64,000 nucleotides of DNA, from the NCBI RefSeq assembly GCF_000172155.1, contig NZ_ABIZ01000001.1, positions 3,691,105 to 3,755,104 on the forward strand, given 5' to 3'. The position numbers and the translations under genes were made by a program. Below are positions 6,033 through 50,679 of the stretch, piece by piece; position 1 is the stretch's first letter, and every line of letters begins with the position of its first letter. The notes below the pieces were generated by a model. It made no database searches, had not been told where the DNA came from, and was given only the letters and a program-made list of their open reading frames with translations. This DNA is from Verrucomicrobium spinosum DSM 4136 = JCM 18804. GTDB lineage: Bacteria; Verrucomicrobiota; Verrucomicrobiia; Verrucomicrobiales; Verrucomicrobiaceae.

Positions 6033-6033
6033 C

Positions 6034-7516: not shown

Positions 7517-7631
7517 AAGAGCAAAGTGCTTCCCGCGGCCAACCCGTCAAGCGGTTTGCCCTCCGTTTTGACAACGTCGGAAGCGTGTCTATGATCCAGG
7601 CCCCAGATTCGCAATTTTCCATCAAAATATC

Positions 7632-9473: not shown

Positions 9474-9508
9474 CCGCCAGTTCCCCTCTTTTCCAACTCA
9501 GCTTCTCC

Positions 9509-9547
9509 AGGCGCAGCGATCATCCCGGTCGCCGCGCCTTTTGTTTG
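9509..9547 (+). terminator. Rho-independent terminator of htpG
   Basis: Stem AGGCGC/GCGCCT (9509-9514 with 9534-9539) extended by GCGA/TCGC inside, followed by TTTTGTTT. It lies about 35 bp after the htpG stop. The 9548-9786 interval beyond it is AT-rich for the window and holds no gene. Confidence 0.8.
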
Positions 9548-9786
9548 GCCTTCACAATCAGGGGATAATAGAAAACTTTTCGCCGCATAGGGGGCGAAAT
9601 AGGATTGAGAGGTTAGTAGAGTCGCACTGAAAACACTTACCATACCCACCATATGGGGAAAATGGGGTGTTAGCTCGATGATAAGGAAACACCTTATGGT
9701 GGTTGTAAATCTTTACTTGAATCCCTCTTTGTTCGTGTGGAAATAATATCTATGTTGCGAGATTAGAACCACTTGCAACCTGCGAC

Positions 9787-10125
9787 ATGTATCTGCCAAA
9801 ATTCAAATCCGCCGAAACTGTCAAACGCTACACGTTCAAGGGGCACACGGCAGTGTTCCTCCGGAACCTCGTCGCGGTCGGGACGGTCGAGTATCGATTT
9901 GCGCTGATGGTGTACGCGGATGGGGAGGGGGAGGCTTGCTATTGCGTGGCCTCTGAGGTCAACGGCATGGCGCGGGAGCTCGGAGGCGGCTCCCATTTTC
10001 TCGGCGTCTTTGAAGAAGACAGCCACGTTAATTATGGGTCTTCAGACCAATGGGCGGATGAAGAAAAGTTCCTCCATCGCGCACTTGGATTGGCCAGTGG
10101 GAAATTTGGCTCGCCCTTGAGCTAG
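9787..10125 (+). CDS. Hypothetical protein, 112 aa
   Basis: The soluble-looking protein starts MYLPKFKSAETVKRYTFKG and contains a YRFALMVYADGEGEACYCVASEVN stretch with alternating hydrophobic residues that suggest beta strands, then an acidic helical C-terminus (DQWADEEKFLHRALGLA). No signal peptide, membrane span or recognised domain is visible. It is preceded by the most AT-rich intergenic stretch in this part of the window. It converges with the gene at 10162-10395. Confidence 0.75.
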   Translation: MYLPKFKSAETVKRYTFKGHTAVFLRNLVAVGTVEYRFALMVYADGEGEACYCVASEVNGMARELGGGSHFLGVFEEDSHVNYGSSDQWADEEKFLHRALGLASGKFGSPLS

Positions 10126-10161
10126 AGGGTGAAGAGGAGAGCCTGATTCGTAGGCTGTAGC

Positions 10162-10395
10162 CTACTTCTTTTCTTTGCGTTTCTCGCGTTCTTTGCGCCA
10201 TTCGTCCCGGTGTTCCCCGACCCACTCGGTCAGTGCACGGTCGAAGCCGATGTCCTCGCCAGCCTTTTGGCTTTCGATCCACTTGTGTTTGAGGATCTCA
10301 TCCCGTTCTTCGAGAAAGTACTCGTAGTACTTGGAAGCGGATTTGGAACTGACGGCCGGGGCGGTGGCCCCGGCAGGAATCTGGCGACTGCTCAT
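10162..10395 (-). CDS. Small charged hypothetical protein, 77 aa
   Basis: The frame starts at ATG (MSSRQIPAGATAPAV); a TTG eight codons upstream is the alternative. The conserved-looking core is KYYEYFLEERDEILKHKWIESQKAGEDIGFDRALTEWVGEHRDEWRK, followed by a run of Lys, Arg and Glu. I recall similar short HKW-IES-K-G-DIGF-AL-W proteins in many bacteria, but no function is known to me. It may be cotranscribed with argS, which ends upstream of nothing else on this strand; it lies downstream of argS by about 100 bp. Confidence 0.75.
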   Translation of the reverse strand: MSSRQIPAGATAPAVSSKSASKYYEYFLEERDEILKHKWIESQKAGEDIGFDRALTEWVGEHRDEWRKEREKRKEKK

Positions 10396-10491
10396 GGCTA
10401 AAAGGGGTGAGGAAGGCAAAGATCAGCGAAATAGATACGCGATACGCGGCAAGGGAGCGGGTGCGAAACCACTCCCGGAGTTGATTGGACT

Positions 10492-12258
10492 CTACATGCG
10501 GTCAGTTGTTTCAATACCGAGCAATCCAAGGCCAGATTTCAGAACTCGGGAGGTAGTGTCCGCCAGTACGAGGCGAGTGTTCCGCGTCACGCCTTCTGAG
10601 CGGAGTACAGGGCAAGCTTCGTAAAAGGTGTGATAGTATCCCGCCAGTTCATAGAGATACTGGGCCAGCAGGTTGGGCCGAAAATCCTCCAGGACATCGT
10701 GCACGGCCTCGCCGAACTGGGCGAGTTTCAACGCGAGCTGACGCTCTGCGTCCTCTGTGAAGGACACTTCGGGCGCAAGTTTCACCTCGCCGTCCAGCTT
10801 GCGGAAAATGGCACGTGTCCGCACGTAAGCATTGAGCAGGTATGGGGCGGTGTTGCCCTGGAAAGAGAGCATCTTTTCCCAGGCAAACTTGTAGTCGGTC
10901 ATGCGGTGCTGGCTCAGCTCCGCGTACTTCACGGCGGCAATGCCGATGACGGAGGCGATCTTGGCCTTGTCGTCATCGCTGAACTCACGCTCTTCCACCA
11001 CGGCACGGGCGCGCTCGATTGCCTCGTCGATGACTTCGAGCAGGCCGACGCTCTCGCCGGAGCGGGTCTTGAACATTTTGCCATCGGGGCCCAAGATGCT
11101 GCCGAAGGCGATGTGTACCATGCGGGTGGAGTGACCGCGACGATGGGCAGCCTCAAAGACCTGCCGGAAGTGAAGCTGCTGGGGGGCACCGACCACGTAC
11201 CAGATTTCGTCCGCCTTCCACTCGATCACTCGATGGTCGATGGTGGCGAGGTCGGTCGTGGCATAGAGGAAGCCACCGTCACTCTTGCGCACGATGCACG
11301 GGGCGGGCGTCCACTGACCGTCGCGATTGATCAGGAAGGGGTCTTCTTCGGGCTTCTTCACGCCGTCGGAGAAGACGCAAGCGGCACCTTCGCTGATGCG
11401 CGCCTGGCCCTTGGTCAGCATGTCTTCCACCAGGGGAGCGAGGGCATCGTTGTAGTAGCTCTCACCCAGGTAGTGGTCGAACTGGATGCCCAGACGACCG
11501 TAGATGTCATGAAGCTGGTCGAGCGTGAGTTTCACGCATTCCTTCCAGATGGCGAGGTTTTCGGCGTCGCCTTGTTGAAGCTTCACCAACTCCGTCTTGC
11601 AGGTTTCGAGCACGCTCTCGTCTGCCTTGGTGGCGGCATTGATTTCGCGATAGACTCGCACGAGTTCATGGATGGGATCCTCCTTCAACGCGTCTTGATT
11701 GAGGCGGGTCTTCCAGCCATGAATGATCATGCCAAACTGGGTGCCCCAGTCGCCGACATGGTTGTCGGTGACGACGTTGTGGCCCGCCAGCCGGGCAATG
11801 CGAGTAAGGCTGTCGCCAATGAAGGTGCTGCGGATGTGGCCCACGTGCATGGGCTTGGCCACGTTTGGCGCGGAGAAGTCCACCACGATGGTCTTGGCTG
11901 CATCCACGGCCGGGACGCCGAGGCGTTCGTCAGTGATGAGGCTGGAGAGCGCACCTTGCAGTGCCTCCTTGGTGAGGCGGAAGTTCAGGAATCCCGGGCC
12001 GGCGATCTCGGGCTTCTCACAGAGACCGGTCACGTCCATCGCTTCGACGAGCTGGGTGGCCATCGCACGGGGATTGATCTTCTGCTCCTTGGTGGAGAGA
12101 AGCTTGGCTGCCGTCATCGCGGCGTTGCTCTGGTAGTCGCCGAAGCGCGAGTCGCTTGCGTTGGTCACTTCAATGACCAAGCCATCCGGCGGACTGATTC
12201 CGGCGGTGACGAAGGCGGCGAGGAGGCGTTCGGTGAGGAGCTGGCGATAGGTGGGCAT
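10492..12258 (-). CDS. argS: Arginyl-tRNA synthetase
   Basis: ArgS charges tRNA-Arg with arginine. The 588-residue class I synthetase has the N-terminal Add-1-type domain (~1-110), the HIGH-equivalent HVGH within PMHVGHIRSTFIGD (~117-130), DNHVGDWGTQFG, and a KMSK-region equivalent KMFKTRSGES (~390) with the Lys shifted, as is common in ArgS. The anticodon-binding helical domain ends in AGYYHTFYEACPVL. The ATG at 12258 (MPTYRQLL) is chosen over the longer frame because the upstream residues do not resemble the family. The next gene upstream (the NAD fusion) ends 75 bp before it on the same strand. Confidence 0.96.
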   Translation of the reverse strand: MPTYRQLLTERLLAAFVTAGISPPDGLVIEVTNASDSRFGDYQSNAAMTAAKLLSTKEQKINPRAMATQLVEAMDVTGLCEKPEIAGPGFLNFRLTKEALQGALSSLITDERLGVPAVDAAKTIVVDFSAPNVAKPMHVGHIRSTFIGDSLTRIARLAGHNVVTDNHVGDWGTQFGMIIHGWKTRLNQDALKEDPIHELVRVYREINAATKADESVLETCKTELVKLQQGDAENLAIWKECVKLTLDQLHDIYGRLGIQFDHYLGESYYNDALAPLVEDMLTKGQARISEGAACVFSDGVKKPEEDPFLINRDGQWTPAPCIVRKSDGGFLYATTDLATIDHRVIEWKADEIWYVVGAPQQLHFRQVFEAAHRRGHSTRMVHIAFGSILGPDGKMFKTRSGESVGLLEVIDEAIERARAVVEEREFSDDDKAKIASVIGIAAVKYAELSQHRMTDYKFAWEKMLSFQGNTAPYLLNAYVRTRAIFRKLDGEVKLAPEVSFTEDAERQLALKLAQFGEAVHDVLEDFRPNLLAQYLYELAGYYHTFYEACPVLRSEGVTRNTRLVLADTTSRVLKSGLGLLGIETTDRM

Positions 12259-12332
12259 GGAAGATCCCGGACAAACGGGGTCCGCAATAGAGCACACCCT
12301 GCGGATTGTGCATCCTCTAACCCTTCGCACTC

Positions 12333-13715
12333 TCAGTTGCTGAACTGAATCCCAGCGATTTTTTCTGCCATGTCCCGGTTGGCCAGGAAGACCAGTTCCG
12401 CCGTGGCAGCCCGGCTCAGGCGAGCGCGCAGGCTGACGATGGGCCCTTGCGTGATGCCATCCACATACGCAGTGATAGGGCGCTTGATGGGGTCGAGATT
12501 GCGGAACTCCACGTCAGTATCCATGGAGAGCAGGGCGCTTTTCCAATGGGCGGGCTCCATGACATTGGAGCCTACCAAGAGCCAGGCGGGAGTGTCGGCC
12601 AACAAGGGGGCCGCCCCCATGGCGCGAGCGTAGGCTGTGCTCCCCGCAGCGGTGGAGACGAGCGCACCGTCGGCCACCAGCTTGGGCAGGCGGGTCACAC
12701 CATTTACCTGCACCTCCATCCAGGCGCTCTGGCTGGTGGTTCGCTCCACCCAGGCGTCGTTGAAGGCATAGTCCGTGATGCGTTGTCCATCGACGGTCTC
12801 CATTTCCATGAAGATGAGCGGCAGTTGTCGAAAAATCACGTCCTTGGGGGGGAAGGTGCGCTCCTCAAAGACCTGATCCGGGGCATTGAGCAGGAAACCA
12901 AGGTGGCCCGCATTGATGCCGAAAAAGGGCAGACGCCGACGCCAGTGTTCTCGAATGGTGCGTAGCATGGCCCCATCTCCTCCCAGGGTCACAATGAATC
13001 CCGGATTTCTGAGGTCTTCATGGGGACGGAGTTCGGGTTCCCACTCCTGGCATTTGGGATTGGAGGGATCTGCGAGCAACAGGCAGCGGAGGTCCTCCAG
13101 TGTGCCGCGGGACCACGTGGCGGGATTGGTGCCCCGGTAGAGTCCGTAGCGCTCGATGTACCGAAGGGCTGGGGAGGTGAGCAGGTGAGCCACGCTCTCG
13201 CCATGCAGCAAGAGGTCGCGAATCTCCGTGCTGGAGTCGTCCAGTTGGATGGGGAAGATCTCCGCGTTCGGAGGCAGGTCGCCTTGGTTGAGGGCGTGGC
13301 CAGGGCGCGTCAGGACAGCGAAGCGACCCCTCTGCCACAGTTCCGGCCCCCGCTCCCACCCAGTGTGGATGAGCGATTGGCCAAGCGATCCGCCAGTGAG
13401 CCAGTCGGCACCCACCACATGCCAAATTTCGCCCTCTGAGGCATACCTCGATTCAAGAGCAGCGTTCCGGGTGAAGGTGTCCTGCTCCAGGTCAAAAAGA
13501 TCGACCACGACTTTTTCCAGATCACCGAACGTGAGATCGCAAAGCGCGGCGCGAAAGACGGACGGGACGCTGCCCACCTCCGGCTTGTCCGGTCGGGGAC
13601 CGCAGGGGACCACTTTGACTTCATCAAACTTCTCTGAAAGCAGAGCAGCGATGCGACGATGATGCAAGCCAGGTGGATTAAAGCTGCCTCCAAAGAGGGC
13701 AATGCGGCGGGGCAT
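12333..13715 (-). CDS. nadD-nadK: Fused nicotinate/NMN adenylyltransferase - NAD kinase
   Basis: One 460-residue frame joins two consecutive NAD-biosynthesis enzymes. Residues ~1-190 are a nucleotidyltransferase: GGSFNPPGLHH corresponds to the GxFxPx(H/T)xxH motif, with Gly in the His/Thr position and the last His kept, and DDSSTEIRDLL is the ISSTxxR motif. Residues ~225-460 are an NAD kinase: LGGDGAMLRTIREH (~242), GINAGHLGFL, FNDAW in place of the usual NE pair, and DGALVSTAAGSTAYA. The product would make dinucleotide from mononucleotide and then NADP. The ATG at 13715 (MPRRIALFGG) fits the family start. Fusion is seen directly; channeling is inference. Confidence 0.92.
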   Translation of the reverse strand: MPRRIALFGGSFNPPGLHHRRIAALLSEKFDEVKVVPCGPRPDKPEVGSVPSVFRAALCDLTFGDLEKVVVDLFDLEQDTFTRNAALESRYASEGEIWHVVGADWLTGGSLGQSLIHTGWERGPELWQRGRFAVLTRPGHALNQGDLPPNAEIFPIQLDDSSTEIRDLLLHGESVAHLLTSPALRYIERYGLYRGTNPATWSRGTLEDLRCLLLADPSNPKCQEWEPELRPHEDLRNPGFIVTLGGDGAMLRTIREHWRRRLPFFGINAGHLGFLLNAPDQVFEERTFPPKDVIFRQLPLIFMEMETVDGQRITDYAFNDAWVERTTSQSAWMEVQVNGVTRLPKLVADGALVSTAAGSTAYARAMGAAPLLADTPAWLLVGSNVMEPAHWKSALLSMDTDVEFRNLDPIKRPITAYVDGITQGPIVSLRARLSRAATAELVFLANRDMAEKIAGIQFSN

Positions 13716-38586: not shown

Positions 38587-39357
38587 ATGCTCTCCCTCCG
38601 AGGCCTGACCAAGCGCTATGGCGTTCAAACAGCGGTGGATCATCTGTCGCTCGAAGTTCCGGCGGGTCAGATCGTCGGTCTTCTAGGGCCAAACGGGGCG
38701 GGAAAGACCACGACGCTGCGGATGGTGACCGGTTTGCTCAAGCCGGATGACGGCACGGCGCTGATCGCCGGGCGGGACATCACGCTGGAGCCTGTGGAGG
38801 CAAAGCGGGTGCTGGGGTTCGTGCCCGATTCGGGTGCGGTGTACGAGTCACTCACCGGCATGGAGTATCTCCTGATGGTGGCTTCTCTTTACGGGATCGA
38901 GGAAAGCGCCGCTGTGGAGCGGGTGGCACGATTTATCGAGTTCTTTGAGCTCGGGATGGATACGTTGGAGAATAAACTGCTGGGTGCCTACTCCAAGGGC
39001 ATGCGCAGGAAGGTGGTGATCACCGCTGCACTGTTGCATCAACCCAAGGTGGTGTTCCTGGATGAACCGCTGGACGGGCTGGATGCCAATGCCGCAGTGG
39101 GATTCAAGGCGCTGCTGGAGACCCTGGCCCGCGAGGGCAAAACGATTGTGTACAGCTCGCACATCCTGGATGTGGTGCAGCGCGTGTGCCACCGGGTGGC
39201 CATCATTCACCAAGGGAGGTTGCTGGTGGATGGCTCGCCGGAGAACCTGATCCGGGAGCATGCCGCGGCCAGCCTGGAGCAGCTCTTCACTCGCCTGACG
39301 GGCGCGCACGATCACGAACAGCGTGCTGAATCGTTTGCCCGGTCCCTGCGTTCATGA
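38587..39357 (+). CDS. ABC transporter ATP-binding protein
   Basis: The 256-residue ATPase has Walker A GPNGAGKTT (~35-43), a Q-loop region, a signature-motif equivalent YSKGMRRK in place of LSGGQ (~140), Walker B KVVFLDEPLDGLD (~155-167) and the H-loop in YSSHILD (~195). A YSKGMRR-type signature is common in export ABC systems of the multidrug/antibiotic-exporter class. The stop overlaps the permease start (ATGA at 39354-39357), so the two form one exporter. It is divergent from the Gfo/Idh/MocA gene. Confidence 0.95.
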   Translation: MLSLRGLTKRYGVQTAVDHLSLEVPAGQIVGLLGPNGAGKTTTLRMVTGLLKPDDGTALIAGRDITLEPVEAKRVLGFVPDSGAVYESLTGMEYLLMVASLYGIEESAAVERVARFIEFFELGMDTLENKLLGAYSKGMRRKVVITAALLHQPKVVFLDEPLDGLDANAAVGFKALLETLAREGKTIVYSSHILDVVQRVCHRVAIIHQGRLLVDGSPENLIREHAAASLEQLFTRLTGAHDHEQRAESFARSLRS

Positions 39358-40982
39358 AAACCTCTGCGAGCCAGAGCAACGGAAAGGTCTTGCGACGCCT
39401 CTTTTGGACCCTGTTCTTCCGGGGGCGTGCCACCTCCCGGAAGCGGGGCGAGGAAGGCACCGTGAACCGGCATAGCATGCTGGGAACGCTGGGGTTCTAT
39501 CTGCTGGTGGGATTCGCCCCCTGTCTGGCCATCAGGGAGGTGGATGTCCTGACATTTTCCGTGATGCTGCATGGGGCCACCCTCTTCCTCGTGGTGATGC
39601 ATCTGGTGGCCACTGCAGGGAGCGTGCTGTTCAACCGGGAGGAGTCAGAGATTCTTTTGCACCGCCCCGTGACGGCGGAGGAACTGCTCCATGCCAAAAC
39701 CAGTGTGCTGTGTGGGGTGACGGCCATCATGGCGCTGGCCTTGAATCTCCCCGGCATGGTGGCCGGATTGTGGCTGCGGGATGCCCATTGGTGGTTTCCT
39801 CTGGCCCATCTAGTCTCGCTGGGCGGGATGATCGGTTTTTGCGCCGGGGCTCTGGTGGTGGTGTATCAGGTGTGTTTGCGGTGGTTTGGCAGGGACCGGC
39901 TGGACAACATCATGACCACGTTTCAGACGCTCCTCACTGTGGTCTTGGTGATGGGGAGCCAGTCTTTCCGCCTCCTGGGGGAGGTGAATCTGGAAGAAAT
40001 GCGTCGCGCATGGTGGTTGCTGTTCCTGCCGCCCACGTGGTTTGGGGCGATGGATGCCGTGCTCGCGGCACATCAGTCCGAGCTGTGGATGATGATGGCT
40101 GCTGGAGTGGGCGTGCTGGCGACGCTGCTGGTGGGGTGGCTCGGCATGCACCGGCTCGCTGCGAGCTATGGGGAGGGACTGGCTCTGCTCAATGAGCAGG
40201 GGGCACCTGAAATGAAGTCAACAGGCAAGGCGTGGTGGATCCGTCGGATGGTCGGCACACTTCCACTCCGGCGCTGGCTGGCCCACCCAGTGGAGCGTAG
40301 CAGCTTCATCCTCACGGCAGCTTATATGTTTCGTGATCGGGAGACGAAGCTGCGTTTATACCCTGGCATCGCCCAGGTTTTGGCGTTGCCCCTGGTGTTT
40401 CTGCTTGCTGGGCGGGCAGGTCGCGGGGGCGGGGTGGACGTGGCCCTGGCGGGAATCTACATGGGTTGGTTGCCGCTGATGGCCATGCAGATGCTGGCGT
40501 ATAGCGAAAACTGGCGGGCAGCGGAGCTGTTCCAGTCTTCGCCGGAAGGGCGCTGGCAACCCTTGTTTCATGGAGCGAGGAAAGCGGTCCTGGTCCTGCT
40601 GGCCATGCCATTGATTGCTCTGCTCTTGATGGTCGTGCTCGCCACCCATGGAATCAGCAAGTGGCTGTTTCTTCTATTGCCCAACATGGTGATGCTGCCC
40701 GTGTGGTCCCTTGTTCCGGGTTTGGTGAATGAGTGGCGTCCGTTTGCGACCCCGTATGATGCCCGGGATCAAGCCCGATGGGGGTGCCTGACGATGATGG
40801 TGGTGATGGGAGTTTCCTCTGCTGTGGCCATGGCCGGGTGGGGGACGATGAAGGTGGGGGTGTTTCCCCTGGCACTGGTGGGGCAGGTGGTCGTGGTTGG
40901 GTTGATCTATCTGGTTCTCGTCCGCAAAATTGATGGCTTGAGCAAAAAAAGGAGCAACCAACATGAGCCTGACATCCGTTGA
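39354..40982 (+). CDS. ABC exporter permease protein
   Basis: The 542-residue protein contains roughly ten or more hydrophobic spans, for example MLGTLGFYLLVGFAPCLAI, MLHGATLFLVVMHLVATAG, LVVMGSQSFRLLG, MMMAAGVGVLATLLVGWLG and FLLLPNMVMLPVWSLVPG. An FNREESEILLHRPVTAEELLHAKT loop after the second or third span resembles the coupling region of putative ABC exporters. The substrate is unknown. It is translated with the ATPase. The chemosensory operon begins 46 bp further on with no visible terminator, so read-through transcription is possible. Confidence 0.9.
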   Translation: MKTSASQSNGKVLRRLFWTLFFRGRATSRKRGEEGTVNRHSMLGTLGFYLLVGFAPCLAIREVDVLTFSVMLHGATLFLVVMHLVATAGSVLFNREESEILLHRPVTAEELLHAKTSVLCGVTAIMALALNLPGMVAGLWLRDAHWWFPLAHLVSLGGMIGFCAGALVVVYQVCLRWFGRDRLDNIMTTFQTLLTVVLVMGSQSFRLLGEVNLEEMRRAWWLLFLPPTWFGAMDAVLAAHQSELWMMMAAGVGVLATLLVGWLGMHRLAASYGEGLALLNEQGAPEMKSTGKAWWIRRMVGTLPLRRWLAHPVERSSFILTAAYMFRDRETKLRLYPGIAQVLALPLVFLLAGRAGRGGGVDVALAGIYMGWLPLMAMQMLAYSENWRAAELFQSSPEGRWQPLFHGARKAVLVLLAMPLIALLLMVVLATHGISKWLFLLLPNMVMLPVWSLVPGLVNEWRPFATPYDARDQARWGCLTMMVVMGVSSAVAMAGWGTMKVGVFPLALVGQVVVVGLIYLVLVRKIDGLSKKRSNQHEPDIR

Positions 40983-41028: not shown

Positions 41029-41544
41029 ATGCCCTCCGCTTTGACATTTTCCCTCTGTGGCGTCTTGCTGGGGATCGATGTTCGTCACGTGCGGGAGGTG
41101 CTGCCCTGCGTGCGCCTGGTGCATCCTCCAGAGACGCCACCTGCGCTTCGCGGGTTCCTCAATCTGCGTGGTGAAATGGTGCCCGTCCTTCGACTCGAGA
41201 GTGTGCTGCAACTCGCATTGCGGAACGCGGACTGGGATCCAGAGGAGCAGCTACAGTCACGCATCGTCGTGGGCCGCCTGGGTGAATTGAGCGTGGCCTG
41301 GCTGGCAGACGAAGGGGTGGAACTCTTGCGCTACGAGGCCGCTCAGACCGTGCGGCTTCCGGCGGATCATGTGCTTAACAACTGTGCAGACCGGGTCGTG
41401 GCCCGCCCGGCTCCGGCGATGTCGATCGTGCTGCTCAGCCCGTCCAAGGTGCTGCTGGAAGGTGAAAATCTCCGTCTGCGGCAGTTGACGACTCGTGAAA
41501 AGCTTCGTCAGAACGCTTTTGAATTGGCAGAGCAGGAGGCATGA
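41029..41544 (+). CDS. cheW: CheW-like adaptor 1 of the Wsp-type chemosensory operon
   Basis: The 171-residue protein is a single CheW domain: FSLCGVLLGIDVRHVREVLP, ALRGFLNLRGEMVPVLRLESVL and VGRLGELSVAWLADEGVELL. CheW proteins couple a chemoreceptor to the CheA kinase at the inner membrane. It is the first gene of a seven-gene operon, and its stop overlaps the cheR start by 4 bp. In Pseudomonas Wsp operons two CheW paralogues (WspB, WspD) flank the CheR gene in the same way. Confidence 0.92.
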   Translation: MPSALTFSLCGVLLGIDVRHVREVLPCVRLVHPPETPPALRGFLNLRGEMVPVLRLESVLQLALRNADWDPEEQLQSRIVVGRLGELSVAWLADEGVELLRYEAAQTVRLPADHVLNNCADRVVARPAPAMSIVLLSPSKVLLEGENLRLRQLTTREKLRQNAFELAEQEA

Positions 41545-43007
41545 GCGCGGCGGAACCCATGGCGGATCCCGGGGTGTCTGGCCTGCTCAGCGATCCGGAG
41601 TTTCAAAAATTGAAGGAGTGGATCATCTCCACCACCGGCTTGTCATACTATGCCGACAAGGATCGCGACCTCGCGACTGCCGTCGGACGCTGCCAGGAAC
41701 TGGGTGGCAGGCCAGCTCGGGAGGTTCTTGAGGTTTTGAACCGCCGGGGAGGTCCGGCATTGGACCGTTTGGTAGAAGAGTTGACCATTGGAGAGACCTT
41801 CTTCTTCCGGCACCTGGAGATGTTCCATGCCTTGCGAGATCACGTGCTGCCAGACCTCATCCAGAGGCGCGCTGCCCTCAGATCCATCCGCATCTGGAGT
41901 GCGGGCTGCTCTGTAGGCGCGGAACCCTACTCCCTGTCCATCCTGCTGCATGATTTGCTGGGGGATGCCGCGCGGAACTGGTCATTCAAGATTGTGGCGA
42001 CGGACATCAATCGGCGATTCCTCGCTCTTGCCCGTGCCGGTGTCTATGACACGTGGGCGCTTAGAGGCATGGACCCAGCATTGCTCCAACGCACCTTCCA
42101 CCGGGTGGGGGCCCGCTGGCGGATCAATGACCTGTATCGTGAGGCAGTGACCTTTCGGCATCACAATCTGGTTCAAGACAAATTTCCGTCCATCGAGCAT
42201 GAGCTGAGCGGCCTGGACCTGATCATTTGCCGGAACGTCATCATCTATTTTGACACGGCGACCAACCGGCGGCTTGCGGACCAGTTTTACCGCAGTCTGG
42301 TGCCGGGTGGCTGGCTGGCGGTGGGGCATGCGGAGCCTCATACGGAGATCTTCCGCGCCTTCCAGACCATCAATGCGCCCGGGGCGGTGCTGTACCAGCG
42401 GGCCGCAGATGGGAAAGGGGGCGGGATTTTTTCTCCGAATGCGGTGCCCGGCACAGCCCGCACTTCCGCCAAACTATCTCCTCCTGCGGATGCGCAGGTG
42501 CAGGCAATGCCAAAGAAGGCGGAAGTTCCGAATTGGCTTCCCGCTGCTGCCCAGTCCAGACCAGCCGCTCCAGAGCCCGTCCTGCAACCGAAGCCAGTGT
42601 TGGAAGGACTGCCGGAGATTCAGGAAATATCCAAGGCGGCGGACTCTGGTGACCTGGTAGCCGCCAGAAAACTTGCAGAGGGCCTCGCGGCTGCGCAGCC
42701 CCTTCATGAGGGGGCGCACTTCCAGTTGGGACTGGTGTTGTTTCAACTGGGAGAATGGGTAAAGGCGCGGCAAGCTCTGAAACGGAGTCTGTACCTGCGC
42801 CGCGATCTGGCTGTCGCCCACTACTATCTGGGACTGGTTCAGCTTGGTTTGGGAGAGTTCGCAGGCCGGAGTTTCCAGAATGCGCGCCGGTTGATCTCCC
42901 GCCAGGATGGGGTGACGGTGCTCCCCTGGGGAGATGGATTGACCGCTGGAGAATTGCGTGCCCTGTTGCAACCTTACCATGGAGGCACCTCGACACATGA
43001 AGCCTGA
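41541..43007 (+). CDS. cheR: CheR methyltransferase with TPR domain
   Basis: CheR methylates glutamates on the chemoreceptor using S-adenosylmethionine. The 488-residue protein has the helical N-terminal domain with GETFFFRHLEMF (~79-90), the SAM site IRIWSAGCSVGAEPYSLSILL (~115-135), ATDINRRFLALAR and the LIICRNVIIYFD segment. After a Pro/Ala-rich linker (~295-350), a tetratricopeptide region (~360-455, FQLGLVLFQLGEWVKARQALKRSL) follows, as in WspC. The C-terminal 11 bp overlap the next cheW gene. Confidence 0.95.
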   Translation: MSAAEPMADPGVSGLLSDPEFQKLKEWIISTTGLSYYADKDRDLATAVGRCQELGGRPAREVLEVLNRRGGPALDRLVEELTIGETFFFRHLEMFHALRDHVLPDLIQRRAALRSIRIWSAGCSVGAEPYSLSILLHDLLGDAARNWSFKIVATDINRRFLALARAGVYDTWALRGMDPALLQRTFHRVGARWRINDLYREAVTFRHHNLVQDKFPSIEHELSGLDLIICRNVIIYFDTATNRRLADQFYRSLVPGGWLAVGHAEPHTEIFRAFQTINAPGAVLYQRAADGKGGGIFSPNAVPGTARTSAKLSPPADAQVQAMPKKAEVPNWLPAAAQSRPAAPEPVLQPKPVLEGLPEIQEISKAADSGDLVAARKLAEGLAAAQPLHEGAHFQLGLVLFQLGEWVKARQALKRSLYLRRDLAVAHYYLGLVQLGLGEFAGRSFQNARRLISRQDGVTVLPWGDGLTAGELRALLQPYHGGTSTHEA

Positions 43008-43572
43008 GACAGAACGAATCAACTGGGAGCTGGTAAGGCAGCGCATGAAAGAGGCAGAGGCCACCCTGCAGCGGGCGTTTGAGCCAGGGACGGAGGAGCG
43101 GGAGGCCGTTTTGCTGCGCCGTGCTGCCGCCCTGGCGGAAAAAAAGGAAACGGGGAGGTCAAACCAGGAGGGCACCCAGCAAGTGCTTCTCTTGCGCGTG
43201 GGGGATTCAGTGATTGGCCTGGACGCGTCCCAAGTCTCCCAGATCATCAGTTTCCAACATTGGGCTGCTGTGCCGGACGCTCATGACGCGCTGTTAGGTG
43301 TCGTAAACGTGCGGAGTGAACTGGTCAGTCTCTGCAACCCATATCCGTATCTCAAGACGAGTGGGGGTGATGTCTCCGGGTTTGCCCGCGGAGCGGTGCT
43401 CCGCCATCCTTCACTGCGCCTGGCTCTGGGCTGTCACGAAGTGCTCGGGTTTGTCCATCTGGCACCGGAAGAAGTAAAAGAAAACAATGTATTCGAGGCC
43501 GCAGGAAGGCTGGGGGTCCTCTTGGACGCGAATGTTGTTCTTGAACCCTTTTACAGTCTTGTTCCCGCCTAA
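42997..43572 (+). CDS. cheW: CheW-like adaptor 2 of the Wsp-type chemosensory operon
   Basis: The 191-residue protein has a charged helical extension (~1-55) before its CheW domain: LLLRVGDSVIGLDASQVSQIISF, VPDAHDALLGVVNVRSELVSL and LALGCHEVLGFVHL. The extended N-terminus resembles WspD more than WspB. The ATG at 42997 (MKPETERIN) overlaps the cheR stop by 11 bp. Confidence 0.9.
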   Translation: MKPETERINWELVRQRMKEAEATLQRAFEPGTEEREAVLLRRAAALAEKKETGRSNQEGTQQVLLLRVGDSVIGLDASQVSQIISFQHWAAVPDAHDALLGVVNVRSELVSLCNPYPYLKTSGGDVSGFARGAVLRHPSLRLALGCHEVLGFVHLAPEEVKENNVFEAAGRLGVLLDANVVLEPFYSLVPA

Positions 43573-43605
43573 GACGTTTTAAGTTTACCATCTATACCCT
43601 TGTCC

Positions 43606-45228
43606 ATGAATTCCTCTCCCAACGTCTGGCGTGATCTCAAGGTCGGCACCAAACTCACTCTCATTCCGCTGTTTTTCCTCGGAGCCCTGGCAACGATCCT
43701 CTATTTCACTGTCAGTACGCTGGACAGTCAGCAGGACAAATTTCTCGTACTTGAGCTGGTAGGGCGTCAGCGGACCTTGCAACAGCAGCATTTTTCCACG
43801 GCCCTGTTGCTAATGGAGAAGCGTACGACCCGGGAGAAGCTGGACTATGTGCGGAAGGTTTGGGTGGGCACACAGGAAGGGTTGCTCAATGGTGGGGAGG
43901 TGATTGAGCGCCTGAACCGGCCGGAGATGGTGGAGGTGCCCCCCGCCCCAGAGGGCGCTGTACGTGACAATCTGCTGAAGCAGGCCCAGCTCATCACGGT
44001 CTCCATCGATGACACGGACCGTCTCGTGGCCATGGAAAAGACCGCGCCTGACTTCGCTCCGCTGCTGACCAGTCTGCTGCAACGAGAGGCTGAGATTCAG
44101 GACCTCGGCATCGTCATTAACAAAGGGTACACGCAACTGTTGCAGGAACAGTCGCGGGAGCTGGTCTCCAAGGAGGTGCTCATCACGGTGATCGTAGGCG
44201 CACTGGGTTTCCTGATAAGCTGGCTGGTGGCGAGGAGCATTACCGGGCCACTACAGCGGTTGGTGAATCTGGCAGACAACGTTTCCCGTGGCAATTTACG
44301 CACGGAGAAAGCGGCGATCGCAAGCCGCAATGAACTGGGCCAGTTGGGAGACGCCTTCGACAACATGGTGATCAACCTTAAAGATCTGAGTGGCCAGATC
44401 CTGGGAGTCACGGGGAACATCAACTCCGCTGCGGCGGAAATCCTGGCCTCCACTCAACAGCAGGCTTCCAGTACCAAGGAGCAGGCGGCGACGGTGCAAG
44501 AAGTCTCGGCCACAATGCAGGAAATCACGCAGTCCGGTGCAGAGATTGCGGACAAGGCCAAGCAGGTGGCCGCCAGTGCGGAGGCCACCTCTGCCGCCAG
44601 CCAGTCTGGCGTGGGGGCGGTGCAGGCAACCACAAAGCTCATGGAGGGCATCCGTCAGCAAGTGGAGGACGTGGCGGTGAAAATCGTGGGGCTTAGCGAG
44701 CGGACTCAGGCGATTGGTGACATCATCAGCACCGTCAACGAGATCTCTGACCAGTCCAACCTTCTGGCGCTCAACGCCAGCATCGAGGCGGCCAGCGCCG
44801 GGGAGCATGGCACCCGGTTTGCCGTGGTGGCAGGCGAAATGCGCAACCTCGCCCAGCGAGCCAAGGAAAGCACGGTGCAGGTGGGGGGGATTCTTGGAGA
44901 AATCCAACGGGGCATCAACAGCACGGTGATGCTCACGGAGGAGGCGGTGAAGCGCTCTGATTCCGGAAGGCAGCAGGCCCAGGTGACAGAGCAGACCATT
45001 CATCAAATGACGCAGACGACAGTGGAAAGTGTGCACGCGTTCCAGCAAATCATAGGGGCCACCAGTCAGCAGCAGATAGGCTTTGACCAGGTGACGCAGG
45101 GGATGCGCGATATCAGGCAGGCGGCTGAGCAGACCGCCATTGGGACCGCCCAGCTTGAGAAGGCGCTGGGCAATCTCAACGAACTCAGCATCCAGCTCCG
45201 CATGGCGGTTGGCAAGTATCAGCTATAA
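43606..45228 (+). CDS. Methyl-accepting chemoreceptor with PilJ-like sensor domain
   Basis: The 540-residue receptor has TM1 (~18-36, LIPLFFLGALATILYF), a periplasmic domain of ~160 residues whose start ELVGRQRTLQQQH matches the GRQR motif of the type IV pili chemoreceptor (PilJ) N-terminal domain, TM2 (~188-207, VLITVIVGALGFLISWLVA), a HAMP domain (SITGPLQRLVNLADNVSRGNLR) and the cytoplasmic signalling region. The hairpin tip reads ISDQSNLLALNASIEAASAGEHGTRFAVVAGEMRNLA. Start ATG at 43606; a TTG two codons upstream is possible. It is the receptor input (WspA position) of the operon, although placed fourth. Confidence 0.94.
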   Translation: MNSSPNVWRDLKVGTKLTLIPLFFLGALATILYFTVSTLDSQQDKFLVLELVGRQRTLQQQHFSTALLLMEKRTTREKLDYVRKVWVGTQEGLLNGGEVIERLNRPEMVEVPPAPEGAVRDNLLKQAQLITVSIDDTDRLVAMEKTAPDFAPLLTSLLQREAEIQDLGIVINKGYTQLLQEQSRELVSKEVLITVIVGALGFLISWLVARSITGPLQRLVNLADNVSRGNLRTEKAAIASRNELGQLGDAFDNMVINLKDLSGQILGVTGNINSAAAEILASTQQQASSTKEQAATVQEVSATMQEITQSGAEIADKAKQVAASAEATSAASQSGVGAVQATTKLMEGIRQQVEDVAVKIVGLSERTQAIGDIISTVNEISDQSNLLALNASIEAASAGEHGTRFAVVAGEMRNLAQRAKESTVQVGGILGEIQRGINSTVMLTEEAVKRSDSGRQQAQVTEQTIHQMTQTTVESVHAFQQIIGATSQQQIGFDQVTQGMRDIRQAAEQTAIGTAQLEKALGNLNELSIQLRMAVGKYQL

Positions 45229-45274
45229 TTGCTGCTCTCCCCCTTCATTCGGTTCCGAATTTTGAAGCTCCTTC

Positions 45275-47413
45275 GTGTCGTCCTCTTCTGACATCCAACA
45301 GCGTGTGCTCGCGGCGTTCCGTTTGGAATATCGTGAGCAGGTCGCCGTGCTCCGCTCGCTGGTGGAGGCCTGGCCCTTGGCGGAGGGGCCCTTGTTCGAT
45401 GAGGCATTCCGCATGGCCCATAGCATGAAGGGTGGGGCGCGGGTCTGTGATCTTCTGGATGTAGAACATCTGGCGCATGATCTTGAAAGCCTGCTTTCTG
45501 AAGTGGCCAAAAGGCACGTTCCGGCGGATGACGCCGCGAAAGAACGGATGATCCAGATTATTGATGAGGTGGATGACCTCATGATTCTGGAATGCAGCGG
45601 GGCAACCGGCCTGGGCACCGATGCGAGCATGACGCCGACAGAGTCTTTCGTGAACCAGGAGCCTGAAGTGGCGTCCCATTCCGAGCTTGAGCCCGGAGAC
45701 CGCCTGCCTGTTGCCAAAAAGGCGGTGCCGACGGGCGGGGGCGGGCACGACAGCTTGAGGATCCATGCAGGTCATCTGGACAGGCTGTTGCAATCCAGTG
45801 GACAACTCGTGGCAGAGGCCTCAAGGCAGGAGGCCTTGGGCCGTGAACTGGAAGAGTTGTTTGAGCAAACCGAGGCGCTGCGGCGATCCAGTGACCGCAA
45901 TACGGCGGGTCCGGCAGAACTGCACGCTGGCCTGGTGGCGCTGAGCAAGCAGCTCCAGCGTGTGCGATTGCAGCAGCAGCAGGCGGGATGGTCTCTGCGT
46001 ACATTGGGCGAGCGCCAGTTGGAAGAAGTGCGTCACATTGGGATGGTCCCCATCAACACCGTCTTTGAGGGATTTCCCAAGATGATGCGTGATCTGGCGG
46101 CCGAGACCGGGAAGAAAGTGGATTTCACAATCAACGGTGGCGAACTGCAAGCAGATCGTGCCGTGCTGCAATCTCTAAAGGATCCCGTGATGCACGCTCT
46201 TCGGAACGCGATGGCGCATGGGATCGAGTCGCCCTCCAGACGTCGAGCGACGGGGAAAGATGAGACTGGAGCGGTCCGGTTGGACATTGAGGTAATCGGA
46301 CAGGTGCTGAGGCTTTCGGTCTCGGATGATGGCCAGGGGGTGGATCTTTCTTCAGTGCGTGCGCAGGCGCTGCGTAATCGTCTGGTGACTCCAGAGGTGG
46401 CCGAAAACTTGGAGGACTTCCAGTGGCTGGACATTCTTTTTGAGCCACGTTTTTCCACGACGGCGGAGGTCACCCGTGTCTCGGGGCGGGGAGTTGGCCT
46501 GTCCGTGGTGAAAGACCGCGCCACCCAGTTGCAGGGCTCTGCACGCATGCTGCAAAACCCGGGAGGGGGCTGTCAGTTGATCGTGGAAGTGCCTGTAAGT
46601 GTGTCCACCCATCGCCTCCTGCTGGTGCGTACGGCGGGGCGGACCTTTGCGCTGGGCATGCGTGGGCTGGATTCGCTGCATCGGGTGACGAATGTGCACA
46701 CCGTGGAAGGACGCTCCGTGATCATGCATGAAGGACGGCCCGTCCCCCTGGTGACGCTGGGGCCTGCGTGCGGGTTGCCGCCGAGTCTGGTTCGTCATGA
46801 GGACGGTCACTTGCTCGTGGCGGTTTTGAAAGGGGATCGACCCCTGGCTCTCAATGTGGAGGAGTTCGTGGGTGAGACCAGTGCCCTCATCAAGGCCCTG
46901 CCGCATCCGGCTTCGTTGTCGCCGCACTTCTCAGGTGCCATTTTTCTGGAAGGGGGCGAAGTGGCTCTGGTCATCAATCTTCCGGGTTTGATGCAACGTT
47001 TCCTTGGAGCCACTTTGCGCGAAGAGAAGCCTGCGGCGACGGTCAGAAAAAAGCCGGTCGTCCTGGTGGTGGACGACTCCTTCACTGCCCGTACGCTTCA
47101 GAAATCCATCCTGGAAGCTGCCGGCTACGCAGTACGGGTGGCTGTGAATGGAAAAGCCGCCTATGACATGCTCAGGGCGGATCCGGTGGATGCGGTGGTG
47201 TCCGACGTTCAGATGCCTGAGATGGACGGTTTCCAACTGCTGTCTGCGATGAAGAATCACTCCCGCCTCGCTGATCTGCCCGTCGTGCTGGTCACTTCCC
47301 TGAACAGCCGTGAGGATCAGGAGCGCGGTCTGGCCCTGGGTGCCGATGCTTATATCGTGAAGGAGCGCTTCGACCACCGCGAATTGCTTGATACCATACG
47401 ACAGCTGGTCTGA
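45275..47413 (+). CDS. cheA: CheA-type histidine kinase fused to a receiver domain
   Basis: The 712-residue protein contains an HPt domain with phosphorylatable His 49 (MAHSMKGGA), a Ser/Glu-rich linker, a dimerisation region (~155-240), the HATPase domain (N-box HALRNAMAHGIESP, VSDDGQGVD, RFSTTAEVTRVSGRGVGLSVV), a CheW-like domain (~440-580) and a C-terminal receiver with Asp 644 (VVSDVQMPEMDG) and VVLVTSLNS. This CheA-REC layout matches WspE and FrzE. The start is a GTG at 45275. Phosphoryl groups would pass from His 49 to the attached receiver, to CheB and to the hybrid protein downstream; the partners are inferred from position. Confidence 0.95.
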   Translation: MSSSSDIQQRVLAAFRLEYREQVAVLRSLVEAWPLAEGPLFDEAFRMAHSMKGGARVCDLLDVEHLAHDLESLLSEVAKRHVPADDAAKERMIQIIDEVDDLMILECSGATGLGTDASMTPTESFVNQEPEVASHSELEPGDRLPVAKKAVPTGGGGHDSLRIHAGHLDRLLQSSGQLVAEASRQEALGRELEELFEQTEALRRSSDRNTAGPAELHAGLVALSKQLQRVRLQQQQAGWSLRTLGERQLEEVRHIGMVPINTVFEGFPKMMRDLAAETGKKVDFTINGGELQADRAVLQSLKDPVMHALRNAMAHGIESPSRRRATGKDETGAVRLDIEVIGQVLRLSVSDDGQGVDLSSVRAQALRNRLVTPEVAENLEDFQWLDILFEPRFSTTAEVTRVSGRGVGLSVVKDRATQLQGSARMLQNPGGGCQLIVEVPVSVSTHRLLLVRTAGRTFALGMRGLDSLHRVTNVHTVEGRSVIMHEGRPVPLVTLGPACGLPPSLVRHEDGHLLVAVLKGDRPLALNVEEFVGETSALIKALPHPASLSPHFSGAIFLEGGEVALVINLPGLMQRFLGATLREEKPAATVRKKPVVLVVDDSFTARTLQKSILEAAGYAVRVAVNGKAAYDMLRADPVDAVVSDVQMPEMDGFQLLSAMKNHSRLADLPVVLVTSLNSREDQERGLALGADAYIVKERFDHRELLDTIRQLV

Positions 47414-47459
47414 ACCGGCTTTGACCACCTGTCTCCCAACATCCCAACCTCTCCCTGCA

Positions 47460-48542
47460 TTGACGAAAAAGACCACAGTGATGATTGTCGAGGACTCTCC
47501 GGTGATCAGCATGTTCCTGGAGCACATCATCAGTCAGGATCCCCGGCTCCAGGTGGTCGCATCGGTCAGGAGTGGAGAGGAGGCCCTCGCGGTGCTGGAT
47601 CGCGTGAATCCGGACGTGATCTCACTGGACATCCGCCTGCCGGGAATGAATGGCCTGGAGGTGACCCGCCGCATCATGTCGGAGCACCCGACACCCATCG
47701 TGGTTGTTTCCTCAAGTGTGGAAGATGAAGAGCTCAACATCTCCATGAATGCGTTGCGGATTGGGGCGCTTTCCGTCGTGCAAAAGCCGGTGGGCATGAG
47801 CCATCACGACTACGCCGACCTGGCTGCGACGCTGTGCACGAAGCTTTTCATCATGAGCCAGGTGCGCGTGATCCGGCAGCGGTATCGAGTCACCTGGCCA
47901 GGGATGCCCGTGCCCTCCCCGGCGACGATGGTTCCTCTGCCGAAAGCGGGGCGCTGGCGGCCGACTGTGATTGGCATGGTGGCCTCCACGGGAGGCCCGA
48001 GTGCGCTGGTCCGGGTTCTCGGGGATCTTTCTCCTGCGGTCAAACAACCGATCGTGGTGGTGCAACACATCACTCCGGGTTTTGTGCGCGGGTTTGTAAA
48101 CTGGCTGAATGATGTGCTGCCTGACCGGGTGGTGATCGAAGGAATGGCCCAGATGCCGCTGGAAGAAGGCATGGTCTATGTGGCTCCTGCGGACCGGCAT
48201 GCGGTGTGTGTGCCAGGCATGCGCCTCGGGCTGCTGGACACACCCGCTGTCTGTGCGCAGAAGCCTTCCGGGACGGTCTTGTTTCGATCCATGAGCCAGG
48301 TCCATGGTGCAAAGGCGCTTGGTGTGCTGCTCACGGGGATGGGGGAGGACGGCGCGGTGGGGTTAAAGGAAATGTGTGACTCCGGTGGGCTTACCTTTGC
48401 GGAGCATGAGTCCAGCGCCGTGGTGTACGGCATGCCGGGTGCGGCGGTGCGCCTGGGGGCGGCCCGCGAAGTATTGCCGGTTTCGGAAATCGGACCACGG
48501 CTCAATGTGGTCTGTCAGAGCGGGGAGGTTTCCCATGCCTGA
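47460..48542 (+). CDS. cheB: CheB protein-glutamate methylesterase
   Basis: CheB removes receptor methyl groups. The ~360-residue protein has an N-terminal receiver (VMIVEDSPVISMF, Asp 57 in SLDIRLPGMNG, SSSVEDE, Lys in VVQKP) and a methylesterase domain with the catalytic triad Ser 176 (MVASTGGPS), His 203 (VVQHITPGFV) and Asp 297 (LLTGMGEDGAVG). The start is uncertain: a TTG at 47460 gives MTKKTTVMIVED, an ATG at 47481 would cut into the first strand, and an in-frame TTG at 47388 would overlap cheA. The stop overlaps the next start by 8 bp. Confidence 0.95.
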   Translation: MTKKTTVMIVEDSPVISMFLEHIISQDPRLQVVASVRSGEEALAVLDRVNPDVISLDIRLPGMNGLEVTRRIMSEHPTPIVVVSSSVEDEELNISMNALRIGALSVVQKPVGMSHHDYADLAATLCTKLFIMSQVRVIRQRYRVTWPGMPVPSPATMVPLPKAGRWRPTVIGMVASTGGPSALVRVLGDLSPAVKQPIVVVQHITPGFVRGFVNWLNDVLPDRVVIEGMAQMPLEEGMVYVAPADRHAVCVPGMRLGLLDTPAVCAQKPSGTVLFRSMSQVHGAKALGVLLTGMGEDGAVGLKEMCDSGGLTFAEHESSAVVYGMPGAAVRLGAAREVLPVSEIGPRLNVVCQSGEVSHA

Positions 48543-50625
48543 GCATCGCAGCCATATCGTCCTGGTGGAGGATTCTGCCAGCCAGGCACTCAAACTGATT
48601 TCCCTGCTGGAAGCTGAAGGCTGGTTGGTGACCTGGGTTTCCACCGCGGAGGAGGCCTTTATTACGCTGCGCGACAAGCGGCCAGATCTGGTGCTGCTGG
48701 ACTACTATCTGCCCGGCATGCGGGGGGATGAGGTCTGCCGTCGCATCAGAATGCATGTGGACAGCCGCAGTCTTCCGATCGTGATCCTCACAGCCCAGGA
48801 GGACAAGGAACTGCAAGGGTTGGACAGCGGCGCTGATGATTTCATTCTCAAGTCAGGCAATCCGGAGTATCTGCTGCTAAGGGTCCGGACGCTTCTGCAA
48901 AAGGCACGCCCTGAGGGGCGCATCTTTGCCGGGGGTGACACCGGCTTCCGGACGGCCCGCTTGCTGGCCATCGATGACAGCCCCACCTTCCTGGAACATC
49001 TGAGGGGTGAGCTGGAGCGGGAGGGATACAAGGTGGACACTGCACTGGATCCCCTGACCAGCCTGGACTTGGTGAGGAAGAACAAGTACGACGGCGTCAT
49101 CATCGATCTCCTCATGCCCAAGATGGATGGGTTCGAGGTCTGTCGCAGAATCAATGAGCTGCGCCACCAGTTGGAGGTGCCGCTCATTACGATCGTGCTG
49201 ACCGGAGCGGAGTCCCGGGACAACCTCTTTCGTGCCCTGGAGGCAGGGGCTGACGACTTTGTGGGCAAGTCAGGCGACTACGCAATCCTCAAGGGGCGGA
49301 TACGGGCTCTGCTAAGACGGAAGTTTTATGAGGAGGAAAACTCACGCATCCTTCATGAATTCCGTGCCCGGGAACTGGAGGCGGCGCGGGAACGCGTGGC
49401 CAAGGAGGCCGCAGAAGCCCGGGCGGCCCTTGTTGAAGAACTACAGCAACGGGAGGAGGAGCTGCGCAGTTCCAGGGAAGAACTGAAGAGAGCCAACGAG
49501 GCGAAGGACCAGTTTCTGGCGGTGTTGAGCCACGAGCTGCGCACACCGCTCAGCCCGGTGCTGGCAGTCGTGGCAGAGTGGTGTGACCGCCCCCAGGTGC
49601 CTGAGGAACTGCGACGTGACCTTCAGATGGTGAAGCGTAATATAGACCTGGAGGCGAGGCTGATCGACGATCTTCTGGACCTGACCCGGATCATTAAAGG
49701 CAAGATGGAGATGCGGGATGATGAGGTGGATCTGCGCGAACTGTTGAGCCACGCCGTGGAGATATGCCGTGAGTCTCGCACGGGACTGGACCGCATTGTC
49801 ACTCATGATACTGCTGCACAGACCCGGGTGCGAGGGGATGCCATGCGTCTCACTCAGGTGTTGTGGAATCTTCTGCGCAATGCCGTGAAGTTCACTCCAG
49901 AGGACGGCACGGTTCGTGTGAGTCTGAAGTCCGTAGCATCCGGGACCGCTGGAGGTGATGCTGTTGTGATCGAGGTGGCAGACAATGGCATCGGCATCGC
50001 TGCGGAAGACATTGGCAGAATTTTCGACGCCTTTGATCAGGGTAATCGGACGGTGACCCGGCAGTTTGGTGGTCTGGGGCTGGGGCTGGCCATCAGCAAG
50101 GCCATCGTTGAGTTGCATCACGGCACTCTCACGGCGGCAAGTGCAGGCCGGGATATGGGGGCGACCTTCACCCTTACGCTTCCCCTGTTTAAAGGGCATG
50201 CCGTCTCCGATCTGGTGCTGCCCGCCTGCCAGCCTTCATCAGCACCCGTTGCAACTTCTGCGAAGCCCGCTGGATTGCGCATTTTGCTTGTCGAGGATCA
50301 TGAGGACACGCGGGAAGTCATGCGACAGCTCTTGCAGCGGCGTGGGCATGTGGTTCTTGTGGCTCGCAGTGTGGCCACGGCACTGGCGGTATTGGAAGAT
50401 GGTGAGCCTGTGGATCTGCTGATCAGCGATTTGGGACTCCCCGATGGGAGTGGGTTGGACCTCATGAAATCCATCCGGGCCCGGCTGCCGCTCCGTGCAA
50501 TTGCCCTAAGCGGTTACGGGATGGAGGATGATCACCGCCGGTCTCGTGAGGCGGGGTTTCAGGAACACCTGGTCAAGCCAGTGAATTTTTCCGATCTGCT
50601 GAAGGCGATCGACCGGCTGCGATAA
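48535..50625 (+). CDS. REC-REC-histidine kinase-REC hybrid protein, operon output
   Basis: The 696-residue protein has two receiver domains in series (Asp 56 in LLDYYLPG; Asp 191 in IIDLLMPKMDG), an Ala/Glu/Arg-rich coiled coil (~265-320), a HisKA domain with His 333 (LAVLSHELRTPLSP), a HATPase domain (WNLLRNAVKFTPEDG, VADNGIGI, FGGLGLGLAISKAI) and a C-terminal receiver (Asp 632 in ISDLGLPDG). There is no GGDEF or DNA-binding domain and no membrane span. A GGAGG ribosome-binding site lies 7 bp before the ATG at 48535, which settles the start. It takes the place of WspR in Wsp operons, so CheA may feed a second phosphorelay through it. Confidence 0.93.
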   Translation: MPEHRSHIVLVEDSASQALKLISLLEAEGWLVTWVSTAEEAFITLRDKRPDLVLLDYYLPGMRGDEVCRRIRMHVDSRSLPIVILTAQEDKELQGLDSGADDFILKSGNPEYLLLRVRTLLQKARPEGRIFAGGDTGFRTARLLAIDDSPTFLEHLRGELEREGYKVDTALDPLTSLDLVRKNKYDGVIIDLLMPKMDGFEVCRRINELRHQLEVPLITIVLTGAESRDNLFRALEAGADDFVGKSGDYAILKGRIRALLRRKFYEEENSRILHEFRARELEAARERVAKEAAEARAALVEELQQREEELRSSREELKRANEAKDQFLAVLSHELRTPLSPVLAVVAEWCDRPQVPEELRRDLQMVKRNIDLEARLIDDLLDLTRIIKGKMEMRDDEVDLRELLSHAVEICRESRTGLDRIVTHDTAAQTRVRGDAMRLTQVLWNLLRNAVKFTPEDGTVRVSLKSVASGTAGGDAVVIEVADNGIGIAAEDIGRIFDAFDQGNRTVTRQFGGLGLGLAISKAIVELHHGTLTAASAGRDMGATFTLTLPLFKGHAVSDLVLPACQPSSAPVATSAKPAGLRILLVEDHEDTREVMRQLLQRRGHVVLVARSVATALAVLEDGEPVDLLISDLGLPDGSGLDLMKSIRARLPLRAIALSGYGMEDDHRRSREAGFQEHLVKPVNFSDLLKAIDRLR

Positions 50626-50654: not shown

Positions 50655-50679
50655 AGCGGCCGGGGATGGCCCGGCCGCT
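50655..50679 (-). terminator. Terminator between the che operon and the peroxiredoxin gene
   Basis: AGCGGCCGGG (50655-50664) pairs perfectly with CCCGGCCGCT (50670-50679). On the minus strand five Ts follow, serving the peroxiredoxin gene; on the plus strand it lies 30 bp after the hybrid kinase stop, so it may act in both directions. Confidence 0.85.

Follow-up and report, generated by a model that had tools for sequence, protein, structure and literature searches.

The seven-gene chemosensory operon on the + strand at 41029-50625 of the window (the whole 64,000-nucleotide stretch of Verrucomicrobium spinosum DNA analyzed here), which runs from a CheW gene to a hybrid kinase gene, belongs to a branch of CheA systems whose output gene starts in two tandem receivers and not to the Wsp systems, as shown by a CheA tree and by synteny. 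We consider it reasonably probable that the operon encodes a non-flagellar array of the ACF kind, in which a CheA with an attached receiver controls a second, soluble histidine kinase that phosphorylates an unlinked response regulator. A kinase in the place of a diguanylate cyclase is not new, as the descriptions of WspH (PMC8552884) and of the CheR-TPR clusters (PMC3447774) make clear, and control of a hybrid kinase by CheA has already been published for CheA3-CheS3 of R. centenum (PMC3868531). Our results suggest that this CheA-to-hybrid-kinase plan, known from one purple bacterium, recurs in related form in another phylum, and that a homologous REC-REC unit has been coupled with different kinases (HisKA or HWE) or kept as a separate gene. 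The operon sits in a genome with no recognized GGDEF enzyme or flagellin, where its output can be tested. Titles and abstract openings in the open-licence literature naming Verrucomicrobia yielded no description of this system.

Anatomy of the operon and its hybrid kinase

The proteins of the seven genes match Pfam models above the curated cut-offs as CheW, CheR, CheW, MCP with HAMP, Hpt-HATPase-CheW-REC, REC-CheB, and three REC domains with HisKA and HATPase. The first coupling protein, CheW (41029-41544; Pfam CheW E 1.1e-15), is followed by a CheR methyltransferase with C-terminal TPR repeats (41541-43007; Pfam CheR E 3e-48), the best TPR match of which (TPR_2, E 1.1e-5) falls slightly short of the Pfam cut-offs, and by a second CheW (42997-43572; Pfam CheW E 3.4e-11), whose longest ORF runs from 42958 and whose orthologue in locus L040 begins at the position matching 42997. 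The MCP receptor (43600-45228; MCPsignal E 2.3e-32, HAMP E 1.7e-12) has two TM-like segments in hydropathy windows. CheA-REC (45275-47413) carries Hpt, HATPase, CheW and REC domains by Pfam, with His49 and Asp644 read as the Hpt and REC residues, and CheB (47388-48542) combines a receiver (E 1.1e-20) with a methylesterase domain (CheB_methylest E 4.2e-47); the true start of CheB is uncertain, with the REC match beginning at about 47478.

The last gene encodes a hybrid kinase with the layout REC1-REC2-linker-HisKA-HATPase-REC3. Its mechanical ORF (GTG 48376, 749 aa) extends too far 5′, and the start is likely ATG 48535, which would give a protein of 696 aa (48535-50625) and an 8-base overlap with cheB; an equivalent start is possible in all seven hybrid orthologues. 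Pfam and conservation place the phosphosites at Asp56 (VLLDYYL, 48700-48702) in REC1 (48556-48894, approximate limits), Asp191 (VIIDLLM, 49105-49107) in REC2 (48964-49293) and Asp632 (LISDLGL, 50428-50430) in REC3 (50281-50616, approximate limits). Between REC2 and REC3 lie HisKA (49501-49692; E 1e-12), with the invariant His333 in the motif SHELRTPL at 49531-49533, and HATPase_c (49834-50187; E 1.5e-29), and hydropathy finds zero TM-like segments in the protein. The original prediction, made from the letters and their open reading frames, had named these seven genes, a last protein with two receivers, a HisKA/HATPase pair and a third receiver but no GGDEF domain, and the three Asp residues by number. 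This anatomy is borne out by Pfam matches at those positions, all on the + strand, and by the lack of any Pfam GGDEF match in the protein or the genome; the residue numbers are right when counted from ATG 48535.

A strong 10-bp GC-rich hairpin (50655-50679; z −4.85) lies directly past the hybrid kinase gene, and since its T tract is on the − strand only, it is not a canonical + strand terminator. On the 5′ side, an ABC transporter ATPase and a membrane protein are encoded on the same strand at 38587-40982 of the window, with the stop 46 bases 5′ of the first cheW; this transporter pair is whole in L041, partial in L040 and absent from that place in the other four loci.

The gene order is conserved within the family

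The hybrid kinase was searched for in 57 genomes, 36 of them from the Verrucomicrobiaceae. Full-length matches were present in seven (the window's genome counted), all within its family, and the other 29 family genomes, some of them incomplete, had none. All seven loci with a full-length hybrid, the window and six relatives, share the order CheW, CheR, CheW, MCP, CheA, CheB, REC-REC-HK-REC, so the operon order is more than chance, and His333, Asp56, Asp191 and Asp632 are invariant in 7/7. A comparison of gene order had been proposed with the original prediction, which was to be given up if relatives always carried a GGDEF regulator past this gene. Such a regulator is present in none of the six close relatives over the stretches seen (about 1.5 kb in L045), and the prediction survives on this point. 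Neither a further REC gene near the cluster nor a CheY3-like single receiver within it was seen in the seven loci (L039-L045).

The window's genome (8,220,857 bases) has no match to the GGDEF model across its 8.22 Mb, and none genome-wide to the flagellin N-terminal and Flg_bb_rod models; in 14 control genomes these models matched in 8, 4 and 4, respectively. The lack of flagellin and Flg_bb_rod matches supports the earlier view that the output is probably not swimming. Five of the six close relatives are also without a GGDEF match genome-wide, and the sixth (G008) has both of its matches on other contigs. Among the other genomes with tandem-receiver kinases, 5/8 lack GGDEF, and G008, G237 and G175 have it.

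The CheA tree places the operon outside the Wsp systems

A profile scan of contigs with the CheA alignment returned two congeners, Verrucomicrobium sp. BvORR034 and BvORR106, plus a single receiver match that was spurious, and the comparison across phyla therefore drew on plasmid records; 13 were hand-picked from the listed rows, and 12 of these are in the CheA tree. The tree has 59 rows, with the long branches L111, L156 and L130 and the near-copies L040 and L041 omitted, and contains no authenticated P. aeruginosa WspE, no WspH locus and no R. centenum CheA. A branch supported at 100/100 splits 26 rows with an MCP gene before cheA from 33 others. The window's CheA is one of the 26; Azospirillum, Indioceanicola and Methylobacterium join it in a clade of 11 rows (100/99), and a tandem-receiver gene follows CheB in 11/11 clade rows, its first receiver being decayed in Azospirillum. 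On the same side but outside the clade are 13 loci of the phylum, two of which have REC-GGDEF after CheB, and two Sinorhizobium records (L191, L192), which have the MCP gene before cheA and no receiver output after CheB. L116, L126 and L121, all with REC-GGDEF, fall in this region of the tree, and GGDEF outputs are therefore not confined to the Wsp side. The 33-row side holds the second complete Che system of the window's genome and the Wsp-order records, among them plasmid records with REC-GGDEF from Cupriavidus, Burkholderia stagnalis, Mesorhizobium, Novosphingobium and a Hyphomicrobiales bacterium.

The original prediction had called the operon Wsp-type. The shared components stand, with two CheW flanking a TPR-carrying CheR, a CheA with a receiver, and CheB, but the class label fails on gene order and the CheA tree. 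That gene set is not diagnostic of Wsp, as the non-Wsp branch has it too. In Wsp order the MCP gene comes first and a CheW gene directly precedes cheA, and here the MCP gene adjoins cheA. No counterpart of the REC-GGDEF output WspR was found, and the 100/100 branch separates the window's CheA from the Wsp-order REC-GGDEF systems. We reject Wsp membership of the operon on three grounds: the CheA tree, the order of the genes and the lack of a GGDEF match.

A related possibility is that this is a genuine Wsp system with a hybrid kinase substituted for WspR, like WspH in Burkholderia, and with surface sensing and biofilm as its output. WspH is described as the Wsp output there, encoded 5′ of the operon, and 206 such H-systems are counted in PMC8552884; in both cases the terminal output of a chemosensory operon is a hybrid kinase and not a diguanylate cyclase, and the two CheW around CheR-TPR, CheA-REC and CheB all match. 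We regard this as very unlikely: the Wsp-order rows on the far side of the 100/100 branch include Cupriavidus and Burkholderia stagnalis, the MCP gene is not first in the operon, and the Wsp-order group takes the genome's other complete Che system instead. Furthermore, the hybrid gene is 3′ here and has three REC domains, whereas PMC8552884 describes a 5′ gene with one REC domain. The pairing of Wsp order with the other CheA branch is known from Burkholderia stagnalis and Cupriavidus, both with REC-GGDEF, and WspH is set apart by its description.

The second Che system of the genome lies at 281-289 kb of G000 (L046, G000:C1:276000-295900, 4858-12934) in the Wsp order MCP, CheW, CheR, CheW, CheA-REC, CheB; its last gene encodes a lone 141-aa receiver, and its CheA groups with the Wsp-order systems. 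Elsewhere, L047 (G000:C1:6008000-6027900) shows incomplete CheW matches together with part of a CheR at about 9286-10320 on the − strand, this CheR part being 44% identical to the window's CheR over ~100 aa, and may be a decayed third Che cluster.

Alphaproteobacterial relatives appear to share a tandem-receiver module

The order CheW, CheR, CheW, MCP, CheA, CheB, tandem-receiver gene recurs in Azospirillum ramasamyi, Azospirillum sp. B510, TSH58 (where it is read from home-made profiles only), Indioceanicola profundi and Methylobacterium bullatum. Indioceanicola has REC-REC-PAS-HWE as its tandem-receiver output and Methylobacterium has REC-REC-HisKA; A. ramasamyi and B510 encode a receiver protein of 255 aa, with HK-REC on a gene of its own directly after it. 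The two genes adjoin in Azospirillum (L158 12353-14867, L160 12353-14898) and are fused in Verrucomicrobium; the split pair fits a functional link between the REC-REC and HK-REC parts.

A tree of 129 receivers, which omits L156, the near-copies L040 and L041, and middle receivers from L122, L125, L146 and L147, unites the second receivers of 11 proteins, drawn from both Verrucomicrobiota and Alphaproteobacteria, with SH-aLRT 98. For 10 of these proteins the first receivers group as well (86), and the post-kinase receivers make up a further group (93). The grouping of second receivers with second and first with first makes REC-REC look like one homologous module, and the distinct groups indicate that REC1, REC2 and REC3 are separate lineages and not recent duplicates. 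One of the 11 proteins, Niveispirillum L161 (10001-12892, plasmid), is a REC-REC-HisKA-HATPase protein in which further receivers follow and an Hpt is fused; at the front it shares 43% identity over 272 aa with the hybrid of the window, and no cheA was found around it in the fetched stretch. REC1 scores closer to first receivers from GGDEF outputs than it does to either REC2 or REC3, with support of 0 for that fork. We rejected the receiver tree as proof that REC1 is the CheA partner; with this support at the decisive fork it is suggestive only.

The first receiver is decayed in three Azospirillum loci: a home-made profile matches it in part, Pfam run on two of the three finds the second receiver only, and the two Azospirillum proteins aligned have Glu for Asp in REC1. 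This decay speaks against REC1 as a universal CheA target. In Indioceanicola REC2 lacks the Asp, a loss also described for R. centenum CheS3 (PMC3868531), and in the window's hybrid the Asp is intact in both front receivers.

One of the closest described systems is the Che3 cluster of R. centenum (PMC2890560), in which CheA3 phosphorylates REC1 of CheS3 and CheY3 is phosphorylated by CheS3, not by CheA3 (PMC3868531). As described there, the R. centenum system shares with this operon a CheA with a C-terminal receiver, two CheW, CheR, CheB and MCP, and a second kinase that opens with two receivers, on which CheA3 acts through REC1. The CheS3 architecture, REC-REC-PAS-HWE, is found in Indioceanicola profundi (Azospirillaceae) in the window's gene order. 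In the relatives seen, an output kinase with two tandem receivers directly follows CheB, and the window's CheA shares its clade with same-order Azospirillaceae CheA (100/99, in a tree without R. centenum). The likeness has limits: by its published description CheS3 is a PAS-HWE kinase that lacks a C-terminal receiver and has Ala191 in a degenerate REC2, which leaves the analogy incomplete, whereas the window's hybrid uses HisKA, carries REC3 and keeps the Asp of both REC1 and REC2. Because it has HisKA and no PAS or HWE domain, we do not file it as a full-length CheS3 orthologue. Additionally, CheY3 is described as part of the R. centenum cluster, and no such gene was seen here.

By gene content, with the TPR match slightly below the Pfam cut-off, the operon fits the ACF class, which pairs CheR-TPR with a multidomain response regulator and is not tied to flagella. 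In PMC3447774, ~40% of the response regulators of CheR-TPR clusters are reported to bear HisKA and HATPase; this is a broad class, in which that account does not single out the tandem-receiver layout. Roughly one CheA protein in three is reported to carry a receiver (PMC10782961).

A proposed route from CheA to a second kinase

The MCP, the two CheW and CheA would form a sensing complex, and CheR-TPR and CheB would adapt it, as is usual for these protein families. Following the CheA3-CheS3 precedent, CheA~P, buffered by CheA's own receiver, would phosphorylate the hybrid at REC1 and perhaps also at REC2. The phosphorylated front receivers may then alter the hybrid's autokinase through the conserved REC2-HisKA linker, and HisKA-HATPase would directly phosphorylate an unlinked response regulator, and REC3 would serve as a brake within the molecule or as a phosphate sink. 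The earlier idea that CheA controls a second kinase thus has a demonstrated parallel in a different pair, that of R. centenum (described in PMC3868531), and by this analogy is probably right.

A search for HPt acceptors, proposed with the original prediction, returned no free protein. Of the four HPt matches in the window's genome, two are in CheA proteins and two in hybrid kinases other than this one, and in 7/7 cluster-carrying family genomes no ORF shorter than 683 aa matched the Pfam Hpt model, which can miss divergent HPt domains. Free HPt matches of 112-130 aa are present in G175. As acceptors, nearby response regulators and free HPt proteins were both set aside, with none near the seven loci and none by Pfam in the genomes.

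These counts bear on a multistep phosphorelay, HisKA to REC3 to HPt to response regulator, with CheA gating through REC1 and REC2. Hybrid kinases that work in relays have the HisKA-HATPase-REC layout, Asp632 is invariant, fused HPt domains occur in two further hybrid kinases of the genome, and the Niveispirillum protein with the related front ends in an Hpt of its own, although in a fetched stretch without cheA. With a free-standing HPt match in 0/7 cluster genomes, and with this operon's CheA as the sole HPt match in G010, we consider such a relay unlikely. In genomes like G010 a closed loop can also be drawn, in which REC3 would pass phosphate to the CheA HPt and so feed the array and CheB adaptation, with CheA gating through REC1/REC2; we consider this variant very unlikely. 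Direct phosphorylation of an unlinked response regulator by the second kinase is the reading we retain.

The slot after cheB is exchangeable across the phylum

A CheA profile search covered 387 genomes, with at most two candidates per genome scored, and 75 had a match of E 1e-60 or better. We examined 52 loci, 51 drawn from the 52 best CheA places plus that of G003; the CheA match of G065 (E 1.2e-95) was left out as it ended short of the receiver's end. CheB follows CheA in 46/52. The same-strand gene after CheB in these 46 loci was REC-REC-HK with or without a further REC in 9, other REC-HK layouts in 8, REC-SpoIIE in 16, REC-GGDEF in 2 (L116, L126), a receiver with no recognized output in 2, CheW in 1 and nothing recognized in 8, the last meaning no match to a home-made profile within 700 bases and not proof of absence. 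The slot 3′ of cheB is thus exchangeable, and a hybrid kinase is one of several fillings. REC-GGDEF was also found near the cluster in L121 (Pfam) and L130 (motif only). In an earlier CheA tree the nine REC-REC-HK loci form one group (95/84), which includes L111 on a long branch and has L156 (REC-REC-REC-HK) beside it.

The exchange of outputs also weighs on the idea that the hybrid tunes the array by acting on CheA~P as a phosphatase or sink, with CheA's receiver or a distant CheY-like protein as the true output. Phosphate could drain through three receivers, and CheA3's own REC is termed a phosphate sink in PMC3868531. Against this, the kinase residues of the hybrid are conserved (His333, and an HATPase domain at E 1.5e-29), and enzymes (GGDEF, SpoIIE) fill the same slot in related clusters, and we find such a role quite unlikely. 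An output kinase under CheA control remains our preferred account of the hybrid.

The commonest output after CheB among the examined loci of the phylum is a SpoIIE-type phosphatase with a receiver (16/46: L115, L117, L124, L137-L140, L142-L145, L148-L151, L153), identified by Pfam in 8/16 and in the others by a profile built from those 8. This arrangement suggests that CheA controls a phosphatase in the REC-SpoIIE clusters.
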